A stretch of DNA of 13,903 nucleotides, from assembly GCA_947564495.1 (NCBI GenBank), contig CANOCD010000007.1:1-13903 (forward strand). The letters are read 5' to 3'. This document shows, piece after piece, positions 4,188 to 13,542 of this stretch. The translations under genes and the position numbers were made by a program. Below the pieces are notes generated by a model, which made no database searches, was not told the DNA's origin, and saw only the letters and a list, made by a program, of their open reading frames with translations. The stretch is from an uncultured Angelakisella sp. GTDB lineage: Bacteria; Bacillota; Clostridia; Oscillospirales; Ruminococcaceae. The number at the start of each line of letters is the position of its first letter. Position 1 is the stretch's first letter.

Positions 4188-4520
4188 ATGCCGGTCAAGA
4201 TCGACATCGCCCCCGAGGCGGACACGGTGACCGCCATGCTCACCGGGGAGATCGACCACCACGGGGCCGGGCGGCTCCGGGAGGCCATCGACGACAGCGT
4301 GCGCCGCACCTGCCCCCGGCTGCTGGTGCTGGATTTCGGCGGGGTGGAGTTCATGGACTCCTCCGGCATCGGCATCGTCCTGGGGCGGTACCGCCTCATG
4401 CAGGACATGGGGGGCAAGCTGGCCCTCAAGAACCTGCCCCCCCACATCCGCCGGGTGATGCAGGTGGCGGGGATCAGCAGTCTGGACATCCAGGAAAAGA
4501 GAGGAGGGACCGCCCCGTGA
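4188..4520 (+). CDS. spoIIAA: Anti-sigma-F factor antagonist SpoIIAA
   Basis: A 110-residue STAS-domain protein that, when unphosphorylated, displaces sigma-F from SpoIIAB in the forespore. The LTGEIDHHGA segment (18-27) and FMDSSGIGIVLGRY (55-68) match Bacillus SpoIIAA closely. Asp57-Ser58-Ser59-Gly60 fall at the same residue numbers as in B. subtilis, where Ser58 is the serine phosphorylated by SpoIIAB and dephosphorylated by SpoIIE. ATG 4188 follows AAAGGTG at a suitable distance. It is the first gene of the spoIIAA-spoIIAB-sigF operon and its stop overlaps the spoIIAB GTG. In other spore formers this operon is driven by sigma-H; a convincing sigma-H site was not found upstream. Confidence 0.96.
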   Translation: MPVKIDIAPEADTVTAMLTGEIDHHGAGRLREAIDDSVRRTCPRLLVLDFGGVEFMDSSGIGIVLGRYRLMQDMGGKLALKNLPPHIRRVMQVAGISSLDIQEKRGGTAP

Positions 4521-4960
4521 ACAGCAGAAAGCCGGAAAACATCATGCGGGTCAGCTTCCCCAGCCGTTCGGTGAACGAGAGCCTTTCCCGCTCCCTGGCG
4601 GCGGCCTTCGTGGCCCTGGCCGACCCCACGGTGGAGGAGCTCTGCGACATCAAGACCGCTGTATCCGAGGCGGTGACCAACGCCATCGTCCACGGCTACC
4701 GGGACACCCTGGGGGTGGTGTACATAACCGCCGCCCTCTACCCCGGGGGGCAGGTCATCATCACCGTCCGGGACCGGGGCTGCGGCATCGCCGACATCCA
4801 GAAGGCCCGGGAGCCCCTTTTCACCACCTGCGAGACAGGGGAGCGGGCCGGCCTGGGCTTTGCGGTGATGGAGGAACTGATGGACAAGGTAAAGGTCCGC
4901 TCCCGCCTGGGGGAGGGGACCATCGTCACCATGGAGCGGACGCTGAAAACCAGAGAATGA
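4517..4960 (+). CDS. spoIIAB: Anti-sigma-F factor / serine kinase SpoIIAB
   Basis: A 147-residue GHKL-type kinase (Bacillus homologue 146) that binds sigma-F and phosphorylates SpoIIAA. The N-box is seen as SEAVTNAIVHGY (50-61, Glu51 and Asn55), the G1 box as DRGCGI (86-91), and the glycine-rich G2 region as GERAGLGFAVME, followed by LGEGTIV. The segment LADPTVEEL and the stretch EPLFTTCE also align with the Bacillus protein. Start GTG 4517 overlaps the spoIIAA stop by four bases and is preceded by AGGAGGG; an internal ATG at 4544 is less likely. The stop TGA (4958-4960) lies only 12 bases before the palindromic element that separates it from sigF. Confidence 0.95.
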   Translation: MNSRKPENIMRVSFPSRSVNESLSRSLAAAFVALADPTVEELCDIKTAVSEAVTNAIVHGYRDTLGVVYITAALYPGGQVIITVRDRGCGIADIQKAREPLFTTCETGERAGLGFAVMEELMDKVKVRSRLGEGTIVTMERTLKTRE

Positions 4961-4969
4961 CCAAAAGGC

Positions 4970-4972
4970 TTA
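4970..4972. repeat. Target-site duplication TTA, left copy
   Basis: TTA immediately outside the left terminal repeat, matched by TTA at 5135-5137 outside the right terminal repeat. Removing the element and one TTA leaves 30 bases between the spoIIAB stop and the sigF GTG, a normal spacing within an operon. Confidence 0.6.
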
Positions 4973-5134
4973 GAGCCTGTTCAAAATCTCCCCGCACACC
5001 GCCCGGACGGGTCCTTTTCCGCCCTGCGGCGTTACAAAAACTTGTAAGCCATAAAGGCTGGACTGCGTTTTTGTGCCTTGCAGGGCGAAAAATTACCCGC
5101 CCGGTCGGCGCACTTGGAGATCTTGAACAGGCTC
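4973..5134. mobile_element. 162-bp MITE-like palindromic element inserted in the spoIIA operon
   Basis: The ends GAGCCTGTTCAAAATCTCC (4973-4991) and its near-perfect inverse ending at 5134 form terminal inverted repeats differing at one of 19 positions. They are flanked by TTA at 4970-4972 and 5135-5137, read as a 3-bp target duplication. Beyond the termini the two arms stay about four-fifths complementary for roughly 68 bases each, leaving a central loop (about 5042-5065) with its own small AGCC/GGCT hairpin, so the whole element folds as one long hairpin. It encodes no protein. The 3-bp TTA duplication recalls IS5-type (ISL2/IS1031) transposition, but the mobilising transposase is not in the window. 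It sits between spoIIAB and sigF, abutting the sigF ribosome site. Confidence 0.8.
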
Positions 5135-5137
5135 TTA
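5135..5137. repeat. Target-site duplication TTA, right copy
   Basis: Right copy of the TTA duplication. Its last A is also the first base of the AGGAAAGGGGG ribosome site of sigF, so the insertion point is at the very edge of the translation signal. Confidence 0.6.
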
Positions 5138-5147
5138 GGAAAGGGGG
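5137..5147 (+). promoter_or_regulatory. Ribosome binding site that decides the sigF start
   Basis: AGGAAAGGGGG lies eight bases before the GTG at 5156. No comparable site precedes the TTG at 5078 inside the palindromic element, which is why 5156 is taken as the sigF start. Confidence 0.6.
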
Positions 5148-5155
5148 CAAAGCGG

Positions 5156-5818
5156 GTGATCGCCGAGGACAGGAGCGCCATGGTGGAGCGGAATCTGGGG
5201 CTGGTCCACTCCTGCGCCCACCGCTTCCAGGGCCGGGGCATCGAGTACGACGACCTCTTCCAGGCCGGGTGCATGGGGCTGGTGAAGGCCACCGCCGCCT
5301 TTGACGAGGGCCGGGGGGTGATGTTCTCCACCTACGCCGTGCCGGTGATCCTGGGGGAGATCCGCCGCCTGTTCCGGGACGGCGGCACCGTCAAGGTGAG
5401 CCGGAGCATCAAGGAGCTGGGCATCAAAGCGGCCCGGGTCCGGGAGCAGCTGAGCACCGCCCTGGGCCGGGACGCCGCTGTCAGCGAGGTGGCCCGGGCC
5501 ATGGACCGCTCCCCCGGGGAGATCGCCGAGGCCCTGGCGGCCACCACGCCCCCCGTCTCCCTCACCGGCAGCGAGGAGGACGGGGGCGGCCAGATCGACC
5601 TGCCGGTGGATTCCCCCGAGGAGCTCCTCTCCGACATCCTGGCCTTAAAGCAGGCCATGGAGCGGATGGAGGACCGGGACCGGCGGCTCATCATCCTGCG
5701 GTACTACCAGAACCGGACCCAGACCGAGACCGCCCGGGAGCTGGGGATGACCCAGGTCCAGGTCTCCCGGCGGGAAAAGAAGCTGATGCAGTTCTTCCGG
5801 GAGGAATTGCTGGGGTAG
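5156..5818 (+). CDS. sigF: RNA polymerase sporulation sigma factor SigF (SpoIIAC)
   Basis: A sigma-70-family factor that drives early forespore genes. Region 2 is clear (NLGLVHSCAHRF, GIEYDDLFQAGCMGL, FSTYAVPVILGEIRRLFRDGGTV), followed by VSRSIKELG of region 3, a variable linker, and region 4 with ILRYYQNRTQTETAREL and GMTQVQVSRREKKL as the -35-binding helix-turn-helix. From GTG 5156 it has 220 residues. It lacks about 25 N-terminal residues of Bacillus SigF (255), including the part of region 1.2 that carries a GDxxAR motif. Start choice is uncertain: GTG 5156 has a good ribosome site; TTG 5078 lies within the inserted element and lacks one; ATG 5180 is also possible. The other frame upstream contains AGD-like residues, so a frameshift in the N-terminus cannot be excluded (see findings). 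Last gene of the spoIIA operon. Confidence 0.88.
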   Translation: MIAEDRSAMVERNLGLVHSCAHRFQGRGIEYDDLFQAGCMGLVKATAAFDEGRGVMFSTYAVPVILGEIRRLFRDGGTVKVSRSIKELGIKAARVREQLSTALGRDAAVSEVARAMDRSPGEIAEALAATTPPVSLTGSEEDGGGQIDLPVDSPEELLSDILALKQAMERMEDRDRRLIILRYYQNRTQTETARELGMTQVQVSRREKKLMQFFREELLG

Positions 5819-10425: not shown

Positions 10426-10668
10426 ATGAACATTTCCGTCTGCATCGGCAGCTCCTGCCACCTGCGGGGCTCCTACGACATTATCCAGCGGCTGAAGGAA
10501 CTCATCGCCGAAGAAAAACTGGAGGACAAGGTGAACCTGAGCGCCTCCTTCTGCCTGGGCCAGTGCACCCACGGCTGCACCATCCGTGTCGACGAGGACA
10601 TCGTCACCGGGGTGACCAAGGACAACATCGGGGACATCCTCCACAAGGCTTTGGCGGAAAGAGGGTGA
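10426..10668 (+). CDS. NuoE/HydC-like thioredoxin-fold [2Fe-2S] protein
   Basis: An 80-residue small iron-sulfur protein. Cys6-x4-Cys11 (VCIGSSCHLRG) and Cys43-x3-Cys47 (FCLGQC) form the four-cysteine pattern of thioredoxin-like [2Fe-2S] ferredoxins related to the 24-kDa subunit of complex I; Cys51 is extra. It is only the ferredoxin domain, lacking the N-terminal helical part of full NuoE (about 160 residues). It probably passes electrons to or from the hydrogenase encoded next. The start has GGGAGG nine bases upstream. The stop TGA at 10666-10668 is five bases before the hydrogenase ATG. Confidence 0.9.
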   Translation: MNISVCIGSSCHLRGSYDIIQRLKELIAEEKLEDKVNLSASFCLGQCTHGCTIRVDEDIVTGVTKDNIGDILHKALAERG

Positions 10669-10673
10669 CGGGG

Positions 10674-12377
10674 ATGGAAGTGCTGGGCCTCAAACGGGCG
10701 AACTGCAAAAGCTGTCACAAGTGCATCCGGGTCTGCCCGGTAAAATCCATCGAGTTTTCGGGCCAGCAGGCCAAGATCATCGGGGACGAGTGCATCCTCT
10801 GCGGCCAGTGCGTGGTCACCTGCCCCCAGAACGCCAAGGTGGTCCGCTCCGACGTGGAGCGGGTCAAGGCCGCCATGGCCGCCGGGGCCCGGGTGGTGGC
10901 CAGCGTGGCCCCCTCCTTCATCGTGGACTTCCCGGTGGAGGGCATCGAGGAACTGGCGGTCATGCTGGGGAAGCTGGGCTTCGCCGAGGCCCAGGAGACC
11001 GCCATGGGCGCCTACCTGGTGAAAAGCGAGTACGAAAGGATGGTCCGGGAGAAGCGCCAGGACATCATCCTTTCCACCTGCTGCCCCTCGGCGGTGCGGC
11101 TGGTGCAGAAGTATTACCCCGACCTGGTGGAATACCTGGCCCCGGTGGTCTCCCCCATGGAGGCCCACGCCAGGTACATAAAGGAGCGGGACCCCGAGGC
11201 CTTCGTGGTGTTCATTGGCCCCTGCATCTCCAAAAAGGCGGAGGCCGAGGACTTTTCCGCCTCGGTGGACTGCGTCCTCACCTTTGAGGAGCTCCGGGCC
11301 TGGGCCGAGGCCGAACAGGCGGAGCCCGAGACCCTCTCCTGCGACCTGGGGGGACGGCGCTCCCGGTTCTTCCCCAAGCCCGGGGGGATCATCCAGAGCA
11401 TGGACCGGGAGAACACCGGCTACCGCTACTACGCCGTGGACGGCCCCGAAAAGTGCGCCGCCGCCCTTCGGGACATCCGGAGCGGGCGGCTCCACAACGT
11501 CTTTGTGGAGATGAACATCTGCGAGGGCGCCTGCATCAACGGCCCCATGATCCGCTCCCGCCAGGGGGGGATGCTGGAGTGCCAGGACCGGGTCACCGAC
11601 TACGCCGCCCCCGGCTTCCCCGACGTCCCGCCCAAGCGGGATTTCCAGGCCGACCGCCCCGTCCCCCTGGCCTGCGCCATCCCGGCCAAGCCGGTCCGGG
11701 AGAAGATCCCCACCCAGGCGGAGCTGGAGGAGATCCTGGCTAAGATGGGCAAGCAGAGCCCCCTGGACGAGCTCAACTGCGGCTCCTGCGGCTATCCCAC
11801 CTGCCGGGAGAAGGCCAAGGCGGTCTTTAACGGCAAGGCGGAGATCACCATGTGCCTGCCCTATATGCGGGAGCGGGCCGAGTCCCTCTCGGACAAGATC
11901 ATCGGTTCCACCCCCAACGCCATCCTGGTCATCGGGGAGGACCTGACCATCCAGCAGATGAACAGCGCCGCCTGCCGCCTCCTGGAGGTGGACCGCCAGA
12001 CCGCCCTGGCCCGCCGGCCGGTGGAGGAGTTCCTGGACCCGGTGGACTTCGTCTTTGTCCTGGAGGACGGCCGCCCCATCAAGGATAAGAAGGTCTGGCT
12101 GGAAAGCTGCAAGAAGTTCGTGGAGGAGACCATCGTCTACGACATCGAAAACAAGCTCCTCCTGGCCATCATGAAGGATGTCACCGCCGAGGAGCGGGAG
12201 AACCGCCGGGCCCAGGAGCTGCGCCAGCAGACCCTGGAGGTCACCGACCGGATCATCCAGAAGCAGATGCGGACCGTCCAGGAGATCGCCAGCCTCCTGG
12301 GGGAGACCACCGCCGAGACCAAGGTGGCCCTCACCAAGCTCCGGGGGGCCGTGGCGGAGGGGGAAAAGCATGAGTAA
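10674..12377 (+). CDS. PAS-containing [FeFe] hydrogenase, putative sensory (group C / HsfB-like)
   Basis: A 567-residue multidomain protein. Residues 11-21 and 40-50 are two CxxCxxCxxxCP motifs (2[4Fe-4S] ferredoxin). The H-cluster domain (about 60-340) has motif L1 as STCCPSA (Cys136, Cys137), L2 as GPCISKKAE (Cys184, Lys187, Glu190) and L3 as EMNICEGACING (Glu279, Cys283, Cys287), so all four cluster-binding cysteines are kept. A CxxCxxxxCx16C 4Fe-4S domain (Cys369, 372, 377, 394), a PAS domain (about 405-505) and a coiled coil (about 505-560) follow. Two canonical methionines and a tryptophan of the L motifs are replaced, as expected for sensory rather than bulk hydrogenases. ATG 10674 has AGAGGG at eight bases; GTG 10665, overlapping the previous stop, is an alternative. 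It overlaps the phosphatase gene by eight bases. Confidence 0.9.
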   Translation: MEVLGLKRANCKSCHKCIRVCPVKSIEFSGQQAKIIGDECILCGQCVVTCPQNAKVVRSDVERVKAAMAAGARVVASVAPSFIVDFPVEGIEELAVMLGKLGFAEAQETAMGAYLVKSEYERMVREKRQDIILSTCCPSAVRLVQKYYPDLVEYLAPVVSPMEAHARYIKERDPEAFVVFIGPCISKKAEAEDFSASVDCVLTFEELRAWAEAEQAEPETLSCDLGGRRSRFFPKPGGIIQSMDRENTGYRYYAVDGPEKCAAALRDIRSGRLHNVFVEMNICEGACINGPMIRSRQGGMLECQDRVTDYAAPGFPDVPPKRDFQADRPVPLACAIPAKPVREKIPTQAELEEILAKMGKQSPLDELNCGSCGYPTCREKAKAVFNGKAEITMCLPYMRERAESLSDKIIGSTPNAILVIGEDLTIQQMNSAACRLLEVDRQTALARRPVEEFLDPVDFVFVLEDGRPIKDKKVWLESCKKFVEETIVYDIENKLLLAIMKDVTAEERENRRAQELRQQTLEVTDRIIQKQMRTVQEIASLLGETTAETKVALTKLRGAVAEGEKHE

Positions 12378-13542
12378 GCTGTATCTGGAAAACGGCTGGC
12401 TCTCCATGAACAAGGCGGGGGAGCTCCTCTGCGGCGACCACGTGGAGACGGTGAACCGGGAGGACAGCGTCATCATGGTCCTGGCCGACGGCCTGGGGAG
12501 CGGGGTCAAGGCCAGCATCCTTTCCACCCTCACCTCCAAGATATTGGCCACCATGCTGGCCGGGGACATGACGGTGGAGGACAGCGTGGAGACCATCGCC
12601 CTCACCCTGCCGGTCTGCGCCGTGCGCCAGGTGGCCTACTGCACCTTCACCATCCTACAGGTGAACAAGTACACCGGGGAGGTCTACCTGGTCCAGTTCG
12701 ACAACCCCGACCTCATCCTCCTCCGGGGGGGCAAGGTCTTTGACTACCCCAAGGAAAAACGGGAGATCGCCGGCAAGACCATCTACGAGACCCGGCTGTC
12801 GGGCCGGATCGGGGACCTCTACATCATGATGAGCGACGGGGCCATCCACGCCGGGGTGGGGACCACCCTGAACTTCGGCTGGCAGCTGCCGGAGATCGCC
12901 GACTACGCCCAGCGGGTCTGGACCCCGGACCTTTCGGCCAAATCCATGGCGGCCAAGATCAGTGACGCCTGCCGGGAGCTGTACATGGACATTCCCGGGG
13001 ACGACACCACCGTTGCCGCCCTGCGTATCCGCCAGCGCCAGCAGGTGAACCTGATGATCGGCCCCCCCATGGACCCGGCCCGGGACGAGGAAATTTTGGG
13101 GGACTTCTTCGCCCTGGAGGGCAAGACCATCGTCTGCGGCGGCACCACCAGCACCATCGTTGGCCGCTACCTGGGCAAGCCGGTCTGCCCCACCCTGGAT
13201 TTCCCCGACCCGGACATTCCCCCCATCGCCACCATCCAGGGGGTGGACCTCTGCACCGAGGGGGTCATCACCCTGGGCCGGGTGGTGGCCCTGGCGGCCC
13301 AGTGCCTTTCCACCGAGATCGGGGAGCCCACCTGGCTTGCCGCCAAGGACGGGGCCTCCCTCATCGCCAAGATGCTCTTCGAGGAGGCCACCAACGTCAA
13401 CTTCTACGTGGGCCGGGCCATGAACCCCGCCCACCAGAACCCCGAACTGCCCATCAGCCTCAACCTCAAGCTCCGCCTTGTGGAGGAGCTTGCCAAGAGC
13501 CTGGAGGGGATGGAAAAGACGGTGACGGTGCGGTACTACTAA
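12370..13542 (+). CDS. SpoIIE-family PP2C protein phosphatase with an extra C-terminal domain
   Basis: A 390-residue soluble protein. Residues 1-220 form a SpoIIE/RsbU-type PP2C domain with metal-binding aspartates in LADGLGSG (Asp40), MMSDGAIHAG (Asp156) and GDDTTVAAL (Asp211/212), predicted to remove phosphate from a Ser/Thr phosphoprotein. Residues about 225-390 form a second domain with LMIGPPMDPARDEE, KTIVCGGTTSTIVGRYLGK and VDLCTEGVITLGRVV, which I do not recognise. There is no transmembrane part, unlike SpoIIE itself. ATG 12370 lies inside the last codons of the hydrogenase gene, so synthesis is coupled and the hydrogenase-PAS protein is its likely controller. Pairing of this phosphatase type with sensory [FeFe] hydrogenases is known in clostridia; its substrate is not. 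Confidence 0.9.
   Translation: MSKLYLENGWLSMNKAGELLCGDHVETVNREDSVIMVLADGLGSGVKASILSTLTSKILATMLAGDMTVEDSVETIALTLPVCAVRQVAYCTFTILQVNKYTGEVYLVQFDNPDLILLRGGKVFDYPKEKREIAGKTIYETRLSGRIGDLYIMMSDGAIHAGVGTTLNFGWQLPEIADYAQRVWTPDLSAKSMAAKISDACRELYMDIPGDDTTVAALRIRQRQQVNLMIGPPMDPARDEEILGDFFALEGKTIVCGGTTSTIVGRYLGKPVCPTLDFPDPDIPPIATIQGVDLCTEGVITLGRVVALAAQCLSTEIGEPTWLAAKDGASLIAKMLFEEATNVNFYVGRAMNPAHQNPELPISLNLKLRLVEELAKSLEGMEKTVTVRYY

Follow-up and report, generated by a model that had tools for sequence, protein, structure and literature searches.

The window, that is the whole stretch of 13,903 nucleotides that was analysed, carries the genes of a sigma-F switch on its plus strand. spoIIAA (4188..4520), encoding the anti-sigma-F antagonist with a STAS domain, is followed by spoIIAB (4517..4960), encoding the anti-sigma-F factor and ending with a TGA stop at 4958-4960, and by sigF (5156..5818), which starts with a GTG at 5156. 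Only SpoIIAB exceeds its curated cut-off (TIGR01925, 172 bits, cut-off 135); SpoIIAA has TIGR02886 as its best model with 89.6 bits, below the cut-off of 114.75, together with Pfam STAS, and SigF has TIGR02885 with 216 bits, below 321. The three names are nevertheless supported because gene order and orthologues agree, and the GTG start of sigF aligns with GTG or TTG starts in four other genomes of the genus (G001, G003, G004 and G005). Further downstream, at 10426-13542, we noted three genes that, judged by eye, resemble those of a small iron-sulphur protein, a hydrogenase-like PAS protein and a SpoIIE-type phosphatase.

The gap between spoIIAB and sigF is occupied by a palindromic element of 162 bp (4973..5134, no strand assigned), which breaks neither gene and scores 168.5 bits with a covariance model, R1, that has the element itself in its training set. 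Its left terminal inverted repeat, GAGCCTGTTCAAAATCTCC (4973..4991, plus strand), has near-identical counterparts at the ends of IS5-family insertion sequences (ISs), and its right one, GGAGATCTTGAACAGGCTC (5116..5134, minus strand), was read from the sequence; the two are complementary at 18 of 19 positions. A TTA stands on either side, at 4970..4972 in the context C-TTA-G and, again as read from the sequence, at 5135..5137, neither copy having an assigned strand. The 162-bp length, the 19-bp repeats and the TTA duplication had been described in an earlier note on this DNA and were borne out, as was the contact of the right edge with the ribosome site of sigF: the SD-like GGAAAGGGGG (5138..5147, plus strand) starts directly after the right TTA. 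The long hairpin proposed there also stands, the element folding at -89.9 kcal/mol compared with -49.6 +/- 3.7 for 200 dinucleotide shuffles (z -10.9), and the figure of about 68 bp per arm was slightly high, as we counted 63 pairs in the minimum free energy fold. A repeat search returned one inverted pair here, with 59 nt per arm and 80% complementarity. The only ORFs touching the element are mechanical ones crossing its edges, and there is no transposase gene inside it.

Copies, empty junctions and partner elements

We looked for the element in its own genome, an assembly of 377 contigs that is 59% complete, and found 45 matches, corresponding by manual count to 32 distinct places, some of them partial at contig ends. 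Five other full-length copies in this genome are 88-92% identical to the spoIIAB-sigF copy. In a first draw of 61 genomes six matched: the own genome, four more from the genus and, with a 28-bp match, one from another genus. A pattern for one end of the element gave 33 sites in the own genome, between 30 and 108 in each of four further genus genomes and 0 in the remaining five, while its backward control gave 0 in all 10. The search for further copies that the earlier note had proposed thus returned 32 places in the host and the end in 4 of the 9 other genus genomes. No DNA match to the element was found in the plasmid and phage collections.

The orthologous junctions were read in the sigF loci that could be fetched, 30 including that of the window (no sigF orthologue was obtained from G007 or G009). 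All seven of the other genus junctions read (G001-G006 and G008) have a short gap and no element. Searched with the family model, the 29 other sigF loci gave no hit between spoIIAB and sigF, the spoIIAB neighbour being unconfirmed in some distant ones. In G005, the nearest relative sampled by SigF identity (92%), 33 nt separate the stop from the start by manual count, compared with 30 nt in the window after subtraction of the element and one TTA; with the element, the gap grows from 30 to 195 nt. An empty junction with a single TTA was to be looked for according to the earlier note: the junctions without the element are there, and, the relatives' junction letters having diverged, the empty site is matched by place and not letter by letter. 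The opposite outcome, with the element at the same place in all relatives and nowhere else in the genome, was looked for and not found.

The same ends define a family. Pairing ends within 320 bp in the fetched loci gave 100 pairs after removal of redundancy; 62 of them measure 160-162 bp. An identical TNA flanks 71 of the 100 (TAA 40, TTA 26, TGA 3 and TCA 2), and the other 29 have unequal triplets, including own-genome copies with TCA and TTA. In GTDB contigs the end pattern occurs in at least 114 stretches, from Oscillospiraceae and other Clostridia and also from Spirochaetales, Gammaproteobacteria and others. Among the fetched loci, size variants with the same ends have lengths between 48 and 278 bp (for example L029:1306-1389, L007:1505-1728 and L011:458-676), and those of 219-225 bp seemingly carry an extra piece in one arm. 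Among the matches listed from open-licence PMC literature we found no description of this family, which does not imply that it is unpublished.

Full-length ISs with such ends were present in other carriers and none was found in the own genome, so that the partner element sought by the earlier note exists elsewhere. L142:1818-2706 is a complete IS of 889 bp with ends like those of the MITE, and L234:1052-1919 is another of 868 bp; both have TAA on both sides. The L142 transposase consists of two overlapping ORFs with matches to DUF4096, DDE_Tnp_1 and NF033580, the last scoring 137.5 on the larger ORF against a cut-off of 110. The L142 IS combines a 3-nt target with two overlapping ORFs; the sources we cite, in the parts available, give a three-nucleotide target with a single ORF for the IS1031 group (PMC2516522) and two overlapping ORFs for the IS427 group (PMC3281130). 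ISAba37 and ISCaa8 are relatives named in plasmid records, and annotated relatives have approximately 60-65% protein identity. The ISs, of the IS5 family by NF033580, and the MITE have in common the ends GAGYCTRTTYAAAATCT and the TNA duplication; the ISs measure 868-889 bp and encode a DUF4096 and DDE transposase, whereas the MITE has no gene. The L142 IS also lies approximately 20 bp from a 160-bp MITE (2726-2885) with similar ends, TAA standing on each side of both.

With the L142 transposase as query, 8 of the 27 end-pattern genomes searched matched. A transposase of this kind was not found in the own genome, which is incomplete, and within the genus it matched only in G009, as four contig-end fragments with ends GAAGCTGTTTAGTATCT, unlike those of the MITE. 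PF01609 genes, present in 2 of 10 genus genomes, were rejected as partners: L099 is without such an end within 3 mismatches, and the G009 locus (L100) is an IS fragment with diverged ends. The family model detected no MITE core in the ISs of loci L142, L232, L233, L234, L235, L226 and L228; its only matches in the IS loci were the MITE adjoining the L142 IS and, over 30 nt at the end of an IS, a weak hit (E 0.009).

With many copies, empty junctions, TNA duplications and full-length IS5-family ISs sharing its ends, the element is an insertion, a MITE, as the earlier note had read it. A native regulatory hairpin of the spoIIA operon with no insertion, which the strong fold exactly between operon genes and beside the sigF ribosome site might suggest, deserves next to no credence given the many copies elsewhere in the genome and the lack of the family model at the junction of the 29 other sigF loci, and orthologous junctions without the element rule it out. 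A misjoin of a short-read MAG contig through the repeat is conceivable for an assembly this fragmented and incomplete, in which several contigs end inside element copies, but it is very improbable: the flanks restore the spoIIAB-sigF order of the relatives, the other full-length copies are different enough to be distinguished, and TTA is present on both flanks. In the insertion reading, a non-autonomous IS5-family MITE would have entered the 30 nt that separate spoIIAB from sigF, at a C-TTA-G target, after the lineage of this genome had split from G005. It would have been moved in trans by an IS5-family transposase, which we infer, since none was found in the incomplete own genome.

Insertion habits of the family and predicted effect on sigF

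The gene context was examined for 41 genus copies, a part of all copies, with genes called by a codon model that had been trained on the window. The flanking genes are co-directional for 24 of these copies, divergent for 10 and convergent for 3, and 4 copies have a gene on one side only. By position, 27 are intergenic, 12 fall exactly on the stop codon of a neighbour and 2 are inside a predicted ORF, the ORF being predicted on the joined site. While 75% of all TNA sites fall in ORFs, the share of stop-codon insertions was compared outside ORFs, where 12 of 39 copies exceed the expectation from the 85 of 853 TNA sites that are stop codons (p 0.0003). In these genus loci the duplicated TNA is thus the predicted stop codon of the neighbour at approximately three times the expected share. 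No common insertion sites were found among the 41 copies, as judged by flank matches at E 1e-15. Having called the insertion into such an operon unusual, the earlier note was too strong on this point: 24 of the 37 genus copies with genes on both sides lie between co-directional genes. Because the family inserts mostly at intergenic and co-directional sites, the spoIIA operon site is of an ordinary type for it.

The start and ribosome site of sigF are intact beside the element. The mean unpaired probability predicted for the SD-like sequence with three flank lengths was 0.66, 0.49 and 0.52 with the element versus 0.76, 0.45 and 0.12 without it, so that the modelled access to the sigF ribosome site shows no consistent loss. 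Between 4850 and 5300 we found neither a sigma-70-like promoter nor an intrinsic terminator, searched as a hairpin followed by a T run.

We also compared sigF itself between genomes. Between the own genome and G005 dN is 0.038 and dS 0.411 (dN/dS 0.09), and the other nine pairs among five genomes give ratios of 0.08 to 0.22; some of these pairs differ by one terminal codon, and the ratios average over the time before the insertion too and are no proof of present function. The genus commonly has sporulation genes, SpoIIGA and SpoIVA each being present in 8 of its 10 genomes. Canonical Spo0A, SpoIIGA and SpoIVA were not found in the 59% of the own genome that is assembled. For Spo0A_C the best E was 1.3e-9 in the own genome, where this weak match is the only one, and 4.8e-20 in G005, both incomplete assemblies, and near 1e-44 in the other eight genus genomes.

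An insertion that sharply lowers or raises sigF and shifts the timing of sporulation might be expected from a site between the genes of an anti-sigma and a sigma factor, all the more as the lengthened gap could end a translational linkage. Such an effect is nonetheless quite improbable, considering that the ribosome site is predicted to be about as open, that there is no terminator, that sigF is conserved and that co-directional insertions are usual for the family. The regulatory effect on sigF that the earlier note considered may exist and is, by the modelled folds, probably modest. The transcript would carry a hairpin of approximately 63 pairs between spoIIAB and the ribosome site of sigF. 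The most likely course, with somewhat less than even confidence, is that this hairpin folds on itself and leaves the sigF site open, that it separates the two genes in translation, that it may be cut by RNase III and that it would affect the SpoIIAB:SigF ratio modestly. Within this picture, the translational separation of spoIIAB and sigF may follow from the lengthened gap, and cutting of the sigma-F operon hairpin by RNase III may occur by analogy with Correia elements.

A core common to elements with other ends

To describe the interior of the element, 66 elements of 157-163 bp were scored against the seed. In 57 of them the interior resembles the seed with z over 7, and these form alignment A1; leaving out the nine with z under 7 favours the family. 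In A1, 93.5% of the cells are paired and 25 of 37 pairs are changed on both sides. The covariation score is 0.313 versus 0.113 +/- 0.006 for shuffled and 0.032-0.089 for slid alignments, counts that the kinship of the copies inflates. Further pair types (47 versus 43.7 in shuffles, a value reached by 57 of 500) were not clearly above expectation.

The conserved part is a core hairpin at 5009..5099 (plus strand), approximately R1 model positions 37-127 with approximate edges, which is also found alone in other, longer elements. It contains two opposed motif pairs, placed by comparison with A1 and, for the first, with the R1 consensus as well. The first (5028..5044, plus strand) is made of GGCGTT at 5028-5033, where the consensus is TGCGTT, and CTTG at 5041-5044; the second (5063..5080, plus strand) is made of CTGCG at 5063-5067 and CCTTG at 5076-5080, at positions that elements with other ends also conserve. 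Of these motifs, TGCGTT and CCTTG, opposed to each other, remain unpaired at the same A1 columns.

In a search of the order, R1 matched 42 of 147 genomes including the own one, and 25 of 86 genera, among the matches listed; in a draw from the phylum it matched 8 of 299 genomes, namely the own genome, two others from its order and five from other classes. Many of the R1 matches listed span only model positions ~37-127. The 20 such core stretches that we read have surroundings unlike the arms and ends of the window element, and the four of them that were folded are longer palindromes. Other core-bearing elements have 156-165 bp and different ends, for example GAACCTGTATTCA, GGGCGATCTGAAAAG and GTACCATGTAAC. 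One of these, in G003 of the same genus (L034, reverse complement 518-678), has the ends GAACCTGTATTCA and TTA on both sides and lies just before spoIIAA; G003 also has GAGCCT-ended copies, so that one genome contains two kinds of ends and one core. In G030, of another genus, a further core-bearing element lies approximately 120 nt after sigF (L060, 2263-2422); its ends are GAACCTGTTCCCAGAGG, and TTA flanks it on either side. Two of the 29 other sigF loci have a core-bearing element beside the operon, which we do not read as more than chance, carrier genomes having tens of copies.

The core was then compared with shuffles keeping composition and pairing, using 38 chosen elements, 8 of them A1 members and 30 found through R1 with other ends or contexts. 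Results showed that 28 of the 30 other-end cores, whose finding through R1 favours the core and several of whose ends are only partly different, outscore all 300 shuffles, as do 6 of the 8 A1 members; the exceptions are L164 and L180 (A1 members), L305 and L314. When 13 A1-type and 19 other-end elements were compared in an alignment fitted to the model, the core of the latter had a mean identity of 0.63 to the A1-type consensus, their arms one of 0.46 and their ends one of 0.53. Several of the other ends are diverged relatives of the MITE's ends and not strangers, because they are still 0.53 identical to the consensus. Three elements of exactly 160 bp (L184:2040-2199, L214:6945-7104 and L216:412-571), whose hosts are a Gammaproteobacteria and a Spirochaetales MAG, have the same ends and interiors unlike the seed. 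As they keep 160 bp and the ends with no core-like interior, they hint that the length of the element may matter by itself.

Selection of the hairpin as an RNA in one orientation, as a structured RNA or a processing signal, would agree with the very stable fold and the covariation, and transcripts of Correia elements are described in the accessible part of PMC10969869 as cleaved by RNase III. This is unlikely on the pairing data. In the chosen orientation, the 37 pairs of A1 contain 67 A-C mismatches versus 29 G-U, and a set of 43 sequences under 80% identical, filtered from 83 best-strand matches of 124, contains 60 A-C versus 46 G-U, half of the G-U being in one column. On the opposite strand the same cells would favour G-U, and selection in one orientation, judged by wobble pairs, is unsupported. 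The orientation to host transcription is 9:9, without bias, in the 18 of the 24 co-directional copies for which it is known. Moreover, no known Rfam RNA matches the window at the gathering threshold, and a lax search of seven loci gave only E values near 1, the best being 0.91. An RNA acting in both orientations, or a DNA, may look alike in such orientation data.

Gene conversion can homogenise palindromes. Palindrome and core could accordingly persist by conversion from arm to arm or by recent amplification, with no selection on structure, and the relatedness of the copies inflates the covariation counts on which selection is argued. We consider this rather unlikely, more so for conversion alone, which is a poor explanation because the motifs stay unpaired at the same columns, where conversion would erase them. 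That the core of the 19 other-end elements, found via the model, is closer to the consensus than their arms and ends also speaks against it.

We infer instead that the core is a part that the element needs and that is kept by selection. The core hairpin with its TGCGTT and CCTTG motifs would have been maintained through compensatory changes in elements with differing ends, and would not be mere filler. As DNA, it may serve in the pairing of ends, as a cruciform or as a protein site; alternatively, it may act as RNA, whichever its orientation. Taken as a whole, it is highly probable that an IS5-family MITE was inserted here after the split from G005, mobilised in trans, that it places a hairpin in the transcript and that its core is kept by selection. 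More tentatively, and with considerable doubt, the hairpin of approximately 90 bp could be a functional module common to different palindromic elements across Bacillota. Their ends would follow the transposase, and what stays the same would be the core and, in many cases, a length of approximately 160 bp.

Comparison with known elements

MITEs are usually viewed as two ends with arbitrary filler in between. The present MITE has a centre that is recognisable in many genera, in elements with differing ends, and with compensatory changes. Under selection on the core, non-autonomous elements of this kind would contain an internal part that they require. A core common to elements with other ends is what a specialist would not expect. 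If the module is real, the core could serve the pairing of the ends, the binding of a host factor or a harmless insertion in transcripts in both orientations. The spoIIAB-sigF case offers in this respect a direct test of the tolerance to a long hairpin in a dosage-sensitive developmental operon.

To our knowledge, Correia elements, ERIC and RUP are without the present core, and their ends and hosts differ from those of the present MITE. They are likewise short and intergenic and can lie in host transcripts, according to the part of the literature available to us (PMC10969869), where cleavage of Correia transcripts concerns RNase III. Chunjie and QMITE2 are similar in forming families of full-length and shortened copies, and the same part of that source reports one host for each (PMC10969869), whereas the present core occurs in 25 of 86 genera among the matches listed. 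REP and the GTAG- and CGTC-tagged palindromes are likewise palindromic multi-copy repeats; they measure 20-40 bp in the portion consulted of PMC3733652, where terminal inverted repeats with a TNA duplication, as in the present MITE, are not among the features described.
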